Below are positions 644-7,338 of a stretch of 22,175 nt of DNA, piece by piece. Origin of the DNA: a virus; IMG/VR virus record IMGVR_UViG_3300025849_000254, positions 1 through 22,175 of that record; one strand, 5' to 3'. The number at the start of each line of letters is the position of its first letter. Within the stretch, counting starts at the first letter, position 1. Under the pieces are notes generated by a model. It was given only the letters and a program-made list of their open reading frames with translations, ran no database searches and was not told the DNA's origin. A program made the position numbers and the translations under genes.

Positions 644-853
644 TTAAAGCGCCCCTATATGTAACGAGATATGTGGGGGCGTAGCGCCCCAGCGAGGTAC
701 CTCGATTTTGCGAAGCGCATCTGAAATGGGCGCTTCCCAGGCTATTCGGTTATCAAATGCAACGTCTTTTTGTGATCCGGTGACGTAAGTCATTGATTTA
801 TATAGCTTTTTATCCAATGCCGCATTGGACGTTCTATAGCTTGCTTGGATCAA
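644..853 (-). CDS. Small hypothetical protein downstream of terS, probable TTG start
   Basis: A 69-codon frame (about 69 residues) overlapping the last codons of terS and ending one base before the next gene. The first ATG downstream (793) has no ribosome site. A TTG at 851-853 has AAGGA 8 bases upstream, in line with TTG starts at neighbouring genes, so I prefer it. The product is soluble-looking, with the stretch NRIAWEAPISDALRKIE and a Pro/His-rich tail (ATPPHISLHIGAL). No family recognised. Support comes mainly from the gapless packing between terS and the 83-residue gene. The DNA inside also holds a 17-bp palindrome and a GGGGCG/CGCCCC hairpin, so a regulatory role for part of this stretch remains possible. 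Confidence 0.5.
   Translation of the reverse strand: MIQASYRTSNAALDKKLYKSMTYVTGSQKDVAFDNRIAWEAPISDALRKIEVPRWGATPPHISLHIGAL
813..829. repeat. 17-bp perfect palindrome just after terS stop
   Basis: TCCAATGC, a central C, then GCATTGGA: 8-bp arms with no mismatch, a few bases past the terS stop codon and inside the next small gene. As RNA it could fold only after opening a few central bases. It may be a protein-binding site (for example for TerS or a regulator) or a processing hairpin. Confidence 0.6.
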
Positions 854-1217
854 TGCCAGCTTCCTTGAGTGATGCGAGTGCAGCATCAACATCGTGATTG
901 ACCGTGACATCACCGCTTACGTTAGCATCCACTTCGGTCTTATCCCGCCAACCTGCTCGGTTCTTGAGGAAGAATATGGCTGCGCTTGTGTTGGGTTTGG
1001 CTGCATCAGTAGCGGAGTTGAACAGTTGGTTGGTCACGGCGGTGATGCCTTCCTGCTTGCCAGCCTTTATGGTGTCGGCAAATAGGTCATCATCCCGCTT
1101 ACGCCTGGATATAGTAGACACTGATATGCCAAGGCTTGTAGCTATCTGCTCTTCTGACAGCCCCATCTTTGCTAGGTTGTACAGCTTTTCGTAGTCAATG
1201 ACCTTAGTGTTAGCCAA
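834..1217 (-). CDS. terS: Terminase small subunit
   Basis: DNA-recognition subunit of the packaging terminase; it binds the packaging site and feeds DNA to the large subunit. The 127-residue protein has an N-terminal helix-turn-helix (GLSEEQIATSLGISVSTISRR, about residues 19-39) and the stretch AIFFLKNRAGWRDK (about 80-93), a hallmark of small terminases, then an acidic, helical tail. Length is normal for the family. The start is TTG (1215-1217) with GGGAG 9 bases upstream; there is no ATG in a suitable place. It heads the minus-strand block terS, small gene, small gene, terL and diverges from the gene at 1393. A TATAAT box on its strand lies at 1253-1258 without a good -35. Confidence 0.87.
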   Translation of the reverse strand: MANTKVIDYEKLYNLAKMGLSEEQIATSLGISVSTISRRKRDDDLFADTIKAGKQEGITAVTNQLFNSATDAAKPNTSAAIFFLKNRAGWRDKTEVDANVSGDVTVNHDVDAALASLKEAGIDPSKL

Positions 1218-1294: not shown

Positions 1295-1315
1295 GTTGAC
1301 TGTGACGGTTGACTG
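1295..1315 (+). repeat. GTTGACTG direct repeat in divergent terS / 1393 region
   Basis: Two exact copies of GTTGACTG (1295-1302 and 1308-1315), 13 bp apart start to start. They lie between the two divergent -10 boxes, where an operator would be expected. A 10-base version, AGTTGACTGT (1294-1303), recurs in the integrase leader at 14144-14153. Confidence 0.4.
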
Positions 1316-2198: not shown

Positions 2199-2270
2199 TT
2201 CCATCTGGAAATAATATGTTCCAACTGGAACCAGTTTTTCCCACGGGAACCGACTTTTCCCACCTGGGAA
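2199..2270. repeat. Four phased TTCC/GGAA dyads
   Basis: Palindromes TTCCATCTGGAA (2199-2210), TTCCAACTGGAA (2219-2230), TTCCCACGGGAA (2238-2249) and TTCCCACCTGGGAA (2257-2270). Their centres are 20, 19 and 20 bp apart, two helical turns. Arms differ between copies but change together on both sides (A/T to C/G), so symmetry is kept. This pattern fits sites for a dimeric DNA-binding protein lined up on one face of the helix. Confidence 0.85.
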
Positions 2271-2494: not shown

Positions 2495-2518
2495 TAAAAA
2501 AAACCGCCCGAAGGCGGC
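2495..2518 (-). terminator. Intrinsic terminator of the minus-strand early operon
   Basis: On the minus strand CCGCC-TTCG-GGCGG is followed by a run of T. The stable UUCG-type loop and U tract are textbook. It lies about 40 bases past the stop of the last gene of the operon. Confidence 0.9.
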
Positions 2519-2556: not shown

Positions 2557-2835
2557 CTATTCCTCGTCCTCATCGGACATATATTGATTTAACATGTAGT
2601 CGTTCTTCAGCATCTCGACAGCGCCTATAAGCGCGTTGTGAGGCAGCGCAGAGAACCAAGTGGTAACGATCTCACCTGACTCGCTGCAAGATACAGCCGC
2701 AAAGCTCTTAGCCTTTGAGGTGTCCATGATCGCAGCGAACTCGTTGAGGGTGATAAGCAGGTTAATATCTAAACCCTCATCCTCATCCGGTTTTGAGGGT
2801 TTTACTGCTGTTAGCTTCACAACTTTGTCGGTCAT
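2557..2835 (-). CDS. Small acidic hypothetical protein
   Basis: A 92-residue acidic protein, last gene of the minus-strand early operon. The N-terminus is mixed-charge (KPSKPDEDEGLD), then comes a hydrophobic-helical core (NLLITLNEFAAIMD, WFSALPHNALIGAVEML) and an acidic end (YMSDEDEE). No family recognised. Its ATG overlaps the stop of the preceding membrane-protein gene by four bases (ATGA), so translation is probably coupled. An intrinsic terminator follows. Confidence 0.75.
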   Translation of the reverse strand: MTDKVVKLTAVKPSKPDEDEGLDINLLITLNEFAAIMDTSKAKSFAAVSCSESGEIVTTWFSALPHNALIGAVEMLKNDYMLNQYMSDEDEE

Positions 2836-3032
2836 AGGAGTCTCTCTATCCAGCTATCAGCGCCAAGCACTATCAGCACCATTACGACCATACCTATCCC
2901 CGCTAGAGTCTCGTAGACCTCCTGCTGGATGGCCTCGCGGCGCTCTCGTTTCTTTATCTGTGATAGCTGACACACGTTAATTGTTTTCATAATTACCTCG
3001 TGCTTGATTATACCACTGTCGATAATTGTCAC
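2832..3032 (-). CDS. Small single-span membrane protein, two possible starts
   Basis: A 66-residue frame from a GTG (3030-3032), or 52 residues from an ATG (2988-2990). The shared part has a Lys/Arg/Glu-rich N-terminal region (QIKKRERREAIQQEVYETL) and one transmembrane helix near the C-terminus (GIGMVVMVLIVLG). Both starts look usable: the GTG has GGAGG 8 bases upstream and overlaps the previous stop (GTGA), and the ATG has GAGG 5 bases upstream. Positive charge before the helix suggests the N-terminus stays in the cytoplasm. No family recognised; a holin or membrane-anchoring role is possible but unsupported by neighbours, which are early genes. Confidence 0.7.
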   Translation of the reverse strand: MTIIDSGIIKHEVIMKTINVCQLSQIKKRERREAIQQEVYETLAGIGMVVMVLIVLGADSWIERLL

Positions 3033-3205
3033 GGGCGTATCCTCCGACCGCAGTTACGGCAACCAGTCACCCAGTCGCCGTAACGCTCTTTACAGCCGCA
3101 CTTGCAGTAAGACTTTCGGCACTGCTCTTCTTCAAAGAAGTAGCTGCCCGTAGTCTTGATCTTCTTGGGCTTGAACTGCATACGCTCACTCGCTGTTATG
3201 ATCAT
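3029..3205 (-). CDS. 58-residue Cys-rich zinc-ribbon-like protein
   Basis: A very short gene. The ATG at 3203-3205 overlaps the preceding stop (ATGA), AAAGG lies 9 bases upstream, and its stop overlaps the next GTG (GTGA). The protein has a basic N-terminus (FKPKKIKTTGSYFFEEEQ) and six cysteines at 29, 34, 36, 38, 49 and 52 (CKCGC and CRNCG), consistent with one or two zinc-binding knuckles. Small zinc-ribbon proteins in phage early operons can bind nucleic acid or host polymerase, but no specific role can be assigned. The coupling on both sides makes coding very likely. Confidence 0.75.
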   Translation of the reverse strand: MIITASERMQFKPKKIKTTGSYFFEEEQCRKSYCKCGCKERYGDWVTGCRNCGRRIRP

Positions 3206-4251: not shown

Positions 4252-4507
4252 CAACACTTCCTCCACATTTTATACAACTCAAATAAATTTCTACTCGCTC
4301 CACTCGCTGGTCGCCATAAGACTCCATGTTCACCTCACGTTCCGCATAGACATCGTGCTTATCGATGCCACCGCACCGCTCACAGTCGTAGTCGAACAAA
4401 TCCTCTTCTTCTTCTTGCTCATCGACCACGGGCTTATTGAATATTGCGTCGAAGTTTGCAGAGAACTGAGCGTGATCAGTTGGTCGTTGCTTGCTACCTT
4501 TTCCCAT
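4241..4507 (-). CDS. Zinc-ribbon phage protein of the MGKGSKQRPTD type
   Basis: An 88-residue protein. Its N-terminus (MGKGSKQRPTD, then FSANFDAIF) is a signature seen in many small phage proteins of unknown function. The middle is strongly acidic (DEQEEEED). Two Cys pairs, CERC (42-45) and CIKC (78-81), each followed by GG, frame a beta-rich stretch and should form a zinc ribbon. It starts in a TAATG junction with the primase-helicase stop, so it is probably coupled to it, suggesting a helper role in replication or early transcription. Function is unknown. Confidence 0.8.
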   Translation of the reverse strand: MGKGSKQRPTDHAQFSANFDAIFNKPVVDEQEEEEDLFDYDCERCGGIDKHDVYAEREVNMESYGDQRVERVEIYLSCIKCGGSVDEK

Positions 4508-6774
4508 TACATATCTCCCCAGTTGTCAGGATCGAGGGGGTCAGTGTTTGGCCCGATGTCTAATGTTGCCCACTCGATGTTGCTTAAATTGTTTGCAGCC
4601 TCAAATATCCACCGTGCCGCCTCAGTGGTGTTGACCTTCACTGTCCGATACCTGTGACCCGCATCGGATCGCATAGCGCCGTCTTGAAACATGTTGTCGA
4701 ACGACTTCATACGCTTCCAGAACGGTGCCTCCTTCATCGGAACCTCAAACTTATTTGATCGGAGGCTGCTTACATATATGTCGTATATTTCAGACTTTGG
4801 AGCCTCTTCACCGAAGTTCACCACGTTGCCTGCTACGCGGTTCTCACGCATCTCGCCGGTCTGCAAGCAGTTGTAAATCCATGCGGTGACGTTATCCAAA
4901 GCCTCTAACTTCTGATCTGTAAGCGCCTCAGTTTGCGGCACCAGGCGTAGGTTGATATTTGTCAGGTCGAAGTTACGCAGGTAATGGATCAGCGCGTTGG
5001 CCCCACCGGCCTCATACCACGCGGTAAGACCGGCAAAGTATTCGCTGTCCTGCTGCCTAGAGTTGCCGACATCAAAAACGGCAAACCTTCTTTCATCGAG
5101 ACTTGCAGGAACAACGTAGTCTTCGTTACTGGTAAACAGGATGCGGGTGTAGTTTGGCGCTGTGTAGCTATCGACACCCTTGCGCTCGATCTGAATCTTG
5201 TCGTTGGTCAGCAGGTCTTTCAGCGCACCCTCAGAGGCTTTTGCGCCAGCCCAGTAAGCCTCATCGGCTTGCAGCAGAAGCGTGTCTTCGAGGTGCCGGT
5301 TAAAGTTGCCGGTGATGTGTTCAGCGCGGCTAACTATCTTGTGATGTGCAGCGACTAGGCCACCCAGCATCTCACCGAACTTGGTCTTGCCTGTGCCTTT
5401 ACGGCCTCTAAGCACAAGCCCGACACCAACCTTGGTCATGGGCTTCTGGATCATCTGCGCGGCCCACGCGACTATATAGTTGGCGTATACAGCGTTGCCG
5501 TCAGCGACCACATCGGTGACAAAGTCCAGCCACGGCTGCACATCACCCTCCCTCGCTTCGTAACTCCAACCCCGCCACAGGTTGTAGCGTTGAAGCACCT
5601 GCATGTCTGGGGCAAAAGTAAGGCCAGCCGCATAGGTTCTGCGCTCTGGGTGTTCAAGCCACATATCTACTAGATTAATTAGCTTGGGCTTTTCATCGCC
5701 CGACAAGACCCGACAGTTCATGTGTTCTTTCTTCAGATCGTCTAGCTTGTACAGCACCAGATTGTCTTTGTTCAGGTCTTCACGCATCACACGCGCCGAC
5801 CCTTCGACATGCACAAAGGCCCACTCTCTGAGCATCTTAGGTAGCCGCTCTTCCTTGATCTCTTCACGCACAGCCTCAACCTCCATAGCCTTCACGCTGG
5901 CGAGGGTTACTGGCGTCTTGCTGCTGCTATCAAAGGTTGCGTACCTGCGCTCACACTGCCCGTCGATGTACGTCTCACCGTCAGATGACCAGTCGTCCCA
6001 GATCATCCAGCCTGTGTCGTCACCATCGAAGTGGTGATGCAGCGCCATGCCTACCCTCACCCACTCGTCGTGATGACAGTTCGCATCAACCGATTCTAGT
6101 AATTGACGGACGCCTTGTTCATCTACATCCATCTTGGGCCGAAACATAGACAGGTCATCTGGGTCTATCTCAGCGGCAGCCATACCCTTTCGGGCCAATT
6201 CCCAGCCGTCCTGCTGCCCCGCGATCTCTTCAAAATAGGCAATAAATGCTTCTGCCTGCTCTTTTGTGATAATCGGCAACTCGCTGTGAGATACATCGGC
6301 AATGCTCTTACCTCTCACCCACTTGTAAGGCTCGTTGGTCGCAGGATGTATGCCGTAAGCCACAAACTGCTGCCCGTCTGCTAACACCTCAACGGCGTGT
6401 TTAGAGCCGACCTCATCCTCATATTCACAGGATCGAATCTTAGAAAAGCCGCCCTCAACTCTAAAAGGTAGGATGCACTTCGGCGCTTGGCCTACTCTCG
6501 TTAGCGACCTGCCGATATTTTCATCTACCCACTTGAGCAGCTTGTAATTCACATCTCTATTTAAGCAGTCGATATCAACTGCAACTGTGTTTCGGCAGAG
6601 AACGCCTACACCACCATCAGCGTGACCATTCCCAAGCCACTTATCTACATCTTCGTGAGTGGCCCTGATGTCCTGCCACCCTTTTAACATGGGCGCTTTT
6701 TTGCCCTTCATTATGGGAACAATTTCGTAGCCGTTATCGACTAGCTGATGGCCGTGTTGCTTTAAAAACGCCAT
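4507..6774 (-). CDS. Bifunctional primase-helicase (AEP prim-pol plus SF3-type helicase)
   Basis: A 755-residue replication protein that should prime and unwind DNA at the phage origin. The N-terminus (1-200) is an archaeo-eukaryotic primase domain with the metal-binding VDID (66-69), PFR and a His-containing strand (FVAYGIHPATNEPYKW). Residues about 220-300 resemble PriCT-2 (ESVDANCHHDEWVRVGMAL, then RYATFDSSS). The C-terminal part is a helicase of the DUF5906/virulence-E type: Walker A GRKGTGKT (457-464), acidic Walker B QADE (502-505), then ILFTSNEDYVVPASLDERRF with the sensor Asn and an Arg finger candidate. The ATG has GAGG 7 bases upstream. It is the main gene of the minus-strand operon; the polymerase lies in the opposite, divergent operon. 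Confidence 0.92.
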   Translation of the reverse strand: MAFLKQHGHQLVDNGYEIVPIMKGKKAPMLKGWQDIRATHEDVDKWLGNGHADGGVGVLCRNTVAVDIDCLNRDVNYKLLKWVDENIGRSLTRVGQAPKCILPFRVEGGFSKIRSCEYEDEVGSKHAVEVLADGQQFVAYGIHPATNEPYKWVRGKSIADVSHSELPIITKEQAEAFIAYFEEIAGQQDGWELARKGMAAAEIDPDDLSMFRPKMDVDEQGVRQLLESVDANCHHDEWVRVGMALHHHFDGDDTGWMIWDDWSSDGETYIDGQCERRYATFDSSSKTPVTLASVKAMEVEAVREEIKEERLPKMLREWAFVHVEGSARVMREDLNKDNLVLYKLDDLKKEHMNCRVLSGDEKPKLINLVDMWLEHPERRTYAAGLTFAPDMQVLQRYNLWRGWSYEAREGDVQPWLDFVTDVVADGNAVYANYIVAWAAQMIQKPMTKVGVGLVLRGRKGTGKTKFGEMLGGLVAAHHKIVSRAEHITGNFNRHLEDTLLLQADEAYWAGAKASEGALKDLLTNDKIQIERKGVDSYTAPNYTRILFTSNEDYVVPASLDERRFAVFDVGNSRQQDSEYFAGLTAWYEAGGANALIHYLRNFDLTNINLRLVPQTEALTDQKLEALDNVTAWIYNCLQTGEMRENRVAGNVVNFGEEAPKSEIYDIYVSSLRSNKFEVPMKEAPFWKRMKSFDNMFQDGAMRSDAGHRYRTVKVNTTEAARWIFEAANNLSNIEWATLDIGPNTDPLDPDNWGDM

Positions 6775-6804: not shown

Positions 6805-6975
6805 TTATTTTTTTAATTGGTTTGCAAGTATCGCCCAGTGGTCGCAGTAAGCTGAAAAAGATAAAAGCTTCACCGACATCCAATGCGCTATGGGTGACGC
6901 GATGCGGGTCACCTTCTCAACCGCTCGCCAGTACCAAATTCCCGCAACCTCTTTAATTCTTTCTAGACGTTTCAT
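6805..6975 (-). CDS. Small basic hypothetical protein
   Basis: A 56-residue, Lys/Arg- and Trp-rich protein (MKRLERIKEVAGIWYWRAVE) between the regulator gene and the primase-helicase. The helices look amphipathic, without a clean transmembrane span. I start at ATG 6973-6975 because GAGG lies 6 bases upstream; ATGs upstream would overlap the regulator gene more deeply and lack ribosome sites. It overlaps the regulator by 23 bases. No family recognised; by position it might be an early regulatory or replication accessory protein. Confidence 0.6.
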   Translation of the reverse strand: MKRLERIKEVAGIWYWRAVEKVTRIASPIAHWMSVKLLSFSAYCDHWAILANQLKK

Positions 6976-7234
6976 AAATGACCTCGCTCGACTGTTCATA
7001 ATCCGCAACGATGTCTGGACACATCCGTTTCCACGACACCACGCCTTTTGCCATTAGTTCCATTTGCAACGCTCTATGGGCTGGAACAACCCCTGTTTGT
7101 CGCCACTTACTCAACGCCTGCTTGCTTACGTCCAGGCGACGAGCCAGGGCGTTGCAGTTTTTCACGCCAGAAGATTTCACCACATCATCAATCGCTGACC
7201 GCACTTCATCAGCAAACTCGCTAACAAAATTCAT
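6953..7234 (-). CDS. Cro/YdaS-like HTH regulator
   Basis: A 93-residue DNA-binding protein, first gene of the minus-strand early operon. A helix-turn-helix covers about residues 28-50 (ALARRLDVSKQALSKWRQTG), followed by VPAHRALQMELM and SWKRMCPDIV, the arrangement of YdaS/Cro-type phage regulators (usual length 70-100). The ATG has GAGG 8 bases upstream. It faces the plus-strand replication operon across a 120-bp control region, so it most likely binds there to repress its own gene and set the lytic/lysogenic balance. No larger CI-type repressor is seen, so this may be the only repressor. Confidence 0.85.
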   Translation of the reverse strand: MNFVSEFADEVRSAIDDVVKSSGVKNCNALARRLDVSKQALSKWRQTGVVPAHRALQMELMAKGVVSWKRMCPDIVADYEQSSEVIYETSRKN

Positions 7235-7247
7235 ACTTATTGCCTCT

Positions 7248-7338
7248 TAACTAAATTGTTTGTCGTTTTGGAGTTGACACAATAGAAATTTATTTTTAAG
7301 GTGTCAACCACAGATACAAAAAGTTAGTAACTAAATTG
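7248..7338. repeat. TAACTAAATTG direct repeat flanking the divergent promoters
   Basis: Exact 11-bp copies at 7248-7258 and 7328-7338, one near each gene start and on either side of the TTGACA palindrome. The right copy is part of the palindrome TTAGT-A-ACTAA (7324-7334). The GTTAGT/ACTAAC inverted repeat at 2172-2187 has the same half-sites. These are candidate operators for the Cro/YdaS-like protein. Confidence 0.6.
7273..7308. promoter_or_regulatory. Divergent promoter/operator palindrome
   Basis: GTTGACAC (7273-7280) and GTGTCAAC (7301-7308) are a perfect 8-bp inverted repeat 20 bp apart, each containing a consensus -35 box TTGACA. On the minus strand TTGACA (7302-7307) is followed 17 bp later by TATTGT (7279-7284), a fair -10 for the regulator operon. 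The plus-strand -10 is weak (TAAGGT, 7297-7302). The two promoters overlap, so use of one should block the other, and a protein binding the palindrome would cover both. Confidence 0.65.

Follow-up and report, generated by a model that had tools for sequence, protein, structure and literature searches.

What do four closely spaced palindromes do in the genome of a temperate phage? The stretch analysed, hereafter the window, comprises the 22,175 bp of a virus record and encodes an integrase, a primase-helicase and a terminase small subunit (TerS). Four palindromes are centred at positions 2204.5, 2224.5, 2243.5 and 2263.5, with steps of 20, 19 and 20 bp, or two helical turns, in agreement with the first-pass annotation. 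Written as 14-mers, dyad 1 (TTTCCATCTGGAAA, 2198–2211, core palindrome TTCCATCTGGAA at 2199–2210) and dyad 2 (GTTCCAACTGGAAC, 2218–2231, core TTCCAACTGGAA at 2219–2230) are kept in relatives, dyad 3 (TTTCCCACGGGAAC, 2237–2250, core TTCCCACGGGAA at 2238–2249) is the only one left in two phages (L006 and L007), and dyad 4 (TTCCCACCTGGGAA, 2257–2270), the first to be reached from the side of a micro-ORF, is the most widely conserved. All four fit the consensus TTYCCANNTGGRAA, dyads 2 and 3 with one or two mismatches, and the change in arm length between copies is only apparent, as it reflects a base change at a fixed position of the 14-mer. No other TTCC-N4/6-GGAA dyad occurs in the 22 kb of the window. 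The sequence TTCCNNNNGGAA, expected 0.35 times, was found three times, a count reached by 1 of 100 shuffles, and a chain of four dyads in a 19–21 bp register has an expectation of about 2e-12, which assumes independent base composition and ignores tandem duplication and is hence a bound only. Chance is not a reasonable explanation for the four dyads. A further palindrome, GTTAGT-N4-ACTAAC (2172–2187), adjoins the array and is shared by the window's lineage and L027; its centre varies, being ATCC in the window and different in L074 and L027.

To follow the array in related phages, we used 75 IMG/VR loci carrying the same primase-helicase, together with further scans that reached the membrane protein and TerS. 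The dyad-bearing phages belong to an uncultured, mostly marine family; no DNA relatives were found among named phages, where protein relatives are only distant. Scanning genomes turned up no prophage in an isolate; the nearest match was the MAG contig L102 (59%). In the first set of IMG/VR relatives, 17 of 27 distinct TerS-upstream regions carried one to four dyad copies, and 14 of 16 centre-to-centre steps measured exactly 20 bp. Phages whose primase-helicase is about 70% identical to that of the window retain two to four copies, a second copy has decayed in L074, L011 and L030, and the array is missing from entire lineages that have the same primase-helicase. The first-pass annotation had looked to related phages for both the dyads and their phasing: the phasing recurs, the spacing being non-random wherever dyads occur, but the dyads themselves are missing from many relatives. 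A search of the array-less phages for other palindrome arrays found none. Upstream of TerS in one dyad-less phage (L247:384-1683), a single long inverted repeat, GTTCCAAC...GTTGGAAC, lies about where the dyads would be.

The two arms of the dyads were compared across 18 distinct sites, which are not independent because of kinship. Position 2 from the centre was complementary in 15 of these 18 (permutation p 0.024) and position 5 in 14 (permutation p 0.009); pairs 5 and 2 thus covary beyond shuffled columns, and the compensating arm changes noted at first reading are confirmed, within the limit that the sites share ancestry. Dyad symmetry, covarying arms and a fixed register, the features of a generic dimer operator array, are all present, and the family-wide conservation, the 20 bp register (14/16) and the covarying arms together support the earlier proposal of selection on a symmetric, double-stranded DNA site. 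Judging from these alignments, the four dyads are a real, evolutionarily kept array of probable protein-binding sites beside a probable replication origin. The further proposal that all dimers would sit on one face of the DNA fails across the whole array, in which, at 10.5 bp per turn, successive dyads rotate by about 34–69 degrees and the outer dyads, three steps or 59 bp apart, by about 137 degrees. A tandem duplication drifting without function would account for the variable copy number, the decayed copies and the several lineages without an array, but it is very unlikely given that the 20 bp register and the arm covariation persist across primases about 70% identical, while the spacers between dyads diverge.

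The same palindromes might instead act in RNA, as a row of small hairpins in a transcript that crosses the array, and the plus-strand fold does beat its shuffles (z −4.05; minus strand, z −1.63). Any DNA palindrome, however, also folds as RNA, and the pair adjacent to the centre, which is A-T or C-G at 21 of the 24 sites, stays complementary even though it would lie in the tetraloop of the would-be RNA. Minimum free energy folds, moreover, pair different dyads with one another and yield no single regular set, making an RNA signal highly improbable. The array had no match in Rfam.

A minus-strand membrane micro-ORF of 44 codons (2192–2326, GTG start, M-FLWCVYVVTMLVMIAVDD...) has the array as its 3' half in the window's lineage. 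Its N-terminal membrane peptide, of the M-VYWCVYVVMMLV type, is kept in phages with and without dyads, and the dyads occur in two of its reading frames, the first dyad encoding ...DDSQVGK in one lineage and ...VFPAGKE-stop in another. Since the dyads fall in different frames in different phages, it is the DNA and not the encoded peptide that is selected. The micro-ORF is unannotated; it is similar to small hydrophobic peptides of a type I toxin-like or lysis-related kind, and perhaps to the C-terminal end of the 2832–3032 product. In relatives, a promoter-like motif akin to the TerS one precedes it; a generic promoter scan made no call there, so that this promoter is proposed from sequence only.

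The general gene order is replication operon, terminator, micro-ORF, dyads, iteron region, TerS promoter and TerS, nearly all codirectional. The leftward early operon ends, ahead of the micro-ORF, at a terminator-like hairpin (2503–2518, minus strand). The array was itself considered as a terminator and rejected, as it lacks a proper T-tract and the terminator-like hairpin is the one at 2518–2503. TerS (834–1217, minus strand; phrog_309, 1.1e-28) is the first late gene and is codirectional with the replication genes. The plus-strand membrane protein gene at 1393–1857, inserted between origin and TerS, is specific to the window's lineage; many relatives have no such gene between array and TerS. 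The first-pass annotation had placed the dyads between converging genes and had argued from this against a promoter operator. The convergence is not an essential part of the context, as it stems from this insertion, and the argument fails with it, because the flanking genes are codirectional in relatives and a promoter-like motif lies before the micro-ORF there. Wherever it occurs, the array borders the iteron region, in most phages towards the micro-ORF; in L035 and L070 it lies on the TerS side, 117–157 bp upstream of TerS. Across phages, the array lies 117 to 1067 bp upstream of TerS, and in most of them about 450–1050 bp.

The iteron region (1865–2154) resembles an origin: nine GCACAGG iterons in both orientations surround an AT-rich core, in which the AT-richest 60 bp (1987–2046, 73% A+T) is a candidate unwinding element. 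GC skew was uninformative, since it follows gene direction. Found with or without dyads, this region is on sequence grounds the best origin candidate, and the array adjoins it, in keeping with the link to an origin made at first reading. Among related phages the iterons are swapped as a whole set, with at least eight types in a similar orientation layout around an AT-rich core, including CGTTCAAGG in L085, L087 and L074, CTCACAGG in L024 and L049, GCACGGG in L038, GTACGGGG in L037, ACTCAGGG in L070, GTGTCAGG in L027 and GGTCAAAGG in L052. L085 (same region in L221) has the window's exact four dyads but GTTCAAGG iterons in place of GCACAGG. Because the dyads are retained with other iterons, different proteins would read the two kinds of site; the iteron reader was accordingly rejected as the dyad binder, and dyads and iterons evolve independently.

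A plausible candidate for the iteron reader is the C-terminus of the Prim-Pol/PriCT-2/DUF5906 primase-helicase (4507–6774, minus strand). Its last 146 residues (4510–4947) are the most variable part of the protein and are predicted to form a winged helix (pLDDT 77.5, one of five models); the Foldseek neighbours of the model are mostly winged helices, with Orc1/Cdc6 and PadR first, none of them below E 0.05. Between L037 and L038, whose iterons are GTACGGGG and GCACGGG, this C-terminus differs at few residues only.

If the array itself were the core origin, the closest parallel would be phage lambda, whose ori consists of four inverted-repeat iterons bound by the O protein beside an AT-rich tract, a number that rises to six in Stx phages (PMC7466680). 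The window likewise has tandem inverted-repeat sites (2198–2270) near an AT-rich core (1987–2046), and copy number varies between relatives in both cases. Phased TTCC/GGAA dyads with a 21–22 bp period also lie inside the replication-initiator genes of five unrelated phages (L091, L092, L094, L097 and L099). The window differs from lambda, however, in that the dyads are dispensable in the phage family, dropping to one copy or none, and in that the origin layout is carried by a separate, conserved and widespread set of inverted iterons, which surrounds the AT-rich core in dyad-less phages as well. Neither a lambda-O-like nor an HTH_36 initiator was found in Pfam and PHROGs scans of the submitted window proteins, which recovered the primase-helicase and did not include the rightward early genes. 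In the HTH_36 or Lin1244-type initiator genes of L092, L094, L097 and L099, the TTCC-N4-GGAA dyads are similar in sequence and period (21–22 bp) but internal to the initiator gene, and no such gene was identified in the window. We therefore regard core origin iterons as a distinctly unlikely identity for the dyads. Three of these genes (L094, L097 and L099) carry GTTCC-N4-GGAAC dyads with a 22-bp period, probably the origin of another phage group.

Among the further IMG/VR pattern matches, those in L089, L090, L100 and L101 were set aside as coding minisatellites, and that in L191 as a chance match in a tail-protein-like gene; the matches in L091, L092, L094, L097 and L099 are the initiator genes described above, and those in L186 and L192 are XRE-like operators. 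The latter two, which are unrelated phages, have two copies of TTCCCATATGGGAA, an identical dyad type, at a distance of 19 bp and next to an XRE-like HTH gene (L186:2485-2517 and L192:10981-11013), and these pairs are probable repressor operators. The XRE and lambdoid repressor operator clusters thus share with our array dyads of about 14 bp in small groups about 20 bp apart; the window array differs in that it is not at a repressor-gene promoter. By comparison with these systems, the layout of the array appears most like a lambda ori iteron cluster, and the size of its sites like XRE operators. A literature search on the motif and on marine phage origins, of partial coverage, gave no match.

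As to which protein binds the dyads, the first-pass annotation had named the Cro/YdaS-like repressor (6953–7234, minus strand) among the candidates. The phage's probable Cro operator, GTTGACAC...GTGTCAAC (7273–7308), is unlike the dyads; the motif GTTGACA...TGTCAAC is conserved upstream of cro in nearly all loci inspected, the Cro recognition helix is nearly constant among relatives, and the dyad motif is not found at the cro promoter. Since Cro has its own conserved operator of a different sequence, and GTTGAC/GTCAAC-type elements also precede TerS, we rejected it as the dyad binder. No further dyad copy was found in the window, nor any phage gene whose own promoter carries one, and an autoregulated partner can therefore not be named.

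TerS was the candidate that would make the array a packaging recognition site (pac or cosB). In lambda-type phages, cosB spans about 120 bp and contains the R sites bound by TerS (PMC4669245), and our array, similarly, comprises several sites upstream of a TerS gene whose product has an HTH. The distance to TerS, however, ranges from 117 to 1067 bp, and the array is lost in close relatives, from which a core packaging site should not vanish. The TerS recognition helix, moreover, is equally conserved in phages without dyads, its key position varies among phages with near-identical dyads, and the array does not change with it. TerS is consequently disfavoured as the dyad binder, the packaging role suggested at first reading loses its support, and we consider it very doubtful that the dyads are a packaging site. 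No cosN was identified. Either identity discussed here, a λ-O-type core origin or a packaging site, is less likely for the array than a regulatory one.

A 58-aa zinc-ribbon protein (3029–3205, minus strand), another candidate binder, co-occurs with the dyads. Its gene was found in all 17 array-bearing loci that span the position and in none of 9 array-less loci, and the L020/L247 phage, which falls within the array-bearing clade, has neither array nor gene. The dyads might then be the sites at which this small protein activates late genes, much as Ogr does in P2. Ogr/Delta-type proteins of P2 are zinc-finger late activators, and here too a small zinc-binding phage protein accompanies dyads that lie between early and late genes. 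But the co-occurrence is confounded by ancestry, with two to three independent contrasts on the primase tree, and L027 lacks the zinc-ribbon gene despite its two perfect dyads. Ogr-type sites should precede late promoters at a short and constant distance, whereas in most phages about 450–1050 bp separate the array from the start of TerS. The protein has no sequence match to Ogr/Delta, its cysteine spacing differs, a profile scan found no relatives of it outside the phage family, and its AlphaFold model is poor (pLDDT 56), so that DNA binding is only putative. For its clade confounding, the L027 counterexample and the poor fold model, we did not accept the zinc ribbon as a proven binder, and an Ogr-like role for the dyads seems unlikely.

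The reading that we tentatively prefer, at somewhat less than an even chance, takes the array for a cluster of regulatory operators bordering the replication origin, placed between the early (replication) operon and TerS and occupied by cooperating dimers. An operator array fits better than an essential origin core or a packaging site because of the variable copy number, the tolerated decay, the loss in some lineages and the exact register; one to four copies, some of them decayed, are as expected of a tunable regulatory element. In such a scheme, a small dimeric DNA-binding protein, coded by phage or host, would occupy every dyad of 14 bp (TTYCCANNTGGRAA), dimers on adjacent dyads, 20 bp apart, would touch and bind cooperatively, and the copy number (1–4) would set the strength of the array. 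The bound array might modulate transcription from the micro-ORF promoter into the origin and late region, or else origin firing. Gating of either is suggested by the position of the array between the early operon and the late genes, flanking the origin. The dyads probably tune the origin and late-gene region.

A fuller version of this arrangement, rather unlikely as a whole, is an origin of two layers. The inner iterons would be replaced in concert with the winged helix of the primase-helicase, so that related phages would differ in replication specificity, and the outer dyad array, independent of them, would be read by a second small regulator, possibly the zinc ribbon, that gates the firing of the origin or the switch from early to late. 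Such primase-helicase phages are represented here by uncultured contigs only, and in the literature searched, where and how they begin replication is unstudied. From the alignment comes an origin map open to testing: a conserved arrangement of inverted iterons, iteron types that replace one another, a domain that may read them and, apart from these, dyads in variable copy number. Should the dyads govern the origin or the late switch, one site would link the replication of a temperate phage to its late expression. The set-wise turnover of the neighbouring origin iterons may be more interesting than the dyads.

Two GTCAAC elements (1295–1313, minus strand) lie upstream of the TerS promoter of the window (TATAAT, minus strand, about 1258–1253), and GTCAAC also occurs upstream of TerS in phages with and without dyads. 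Such GTCAAC/GTTGAC elements (1295–1313 and 7273–7308 in the window) are common to the cro and TerS promoter regions of nearly all relatives, which suggests that the Cro-like repressor may also act on the first late gene.
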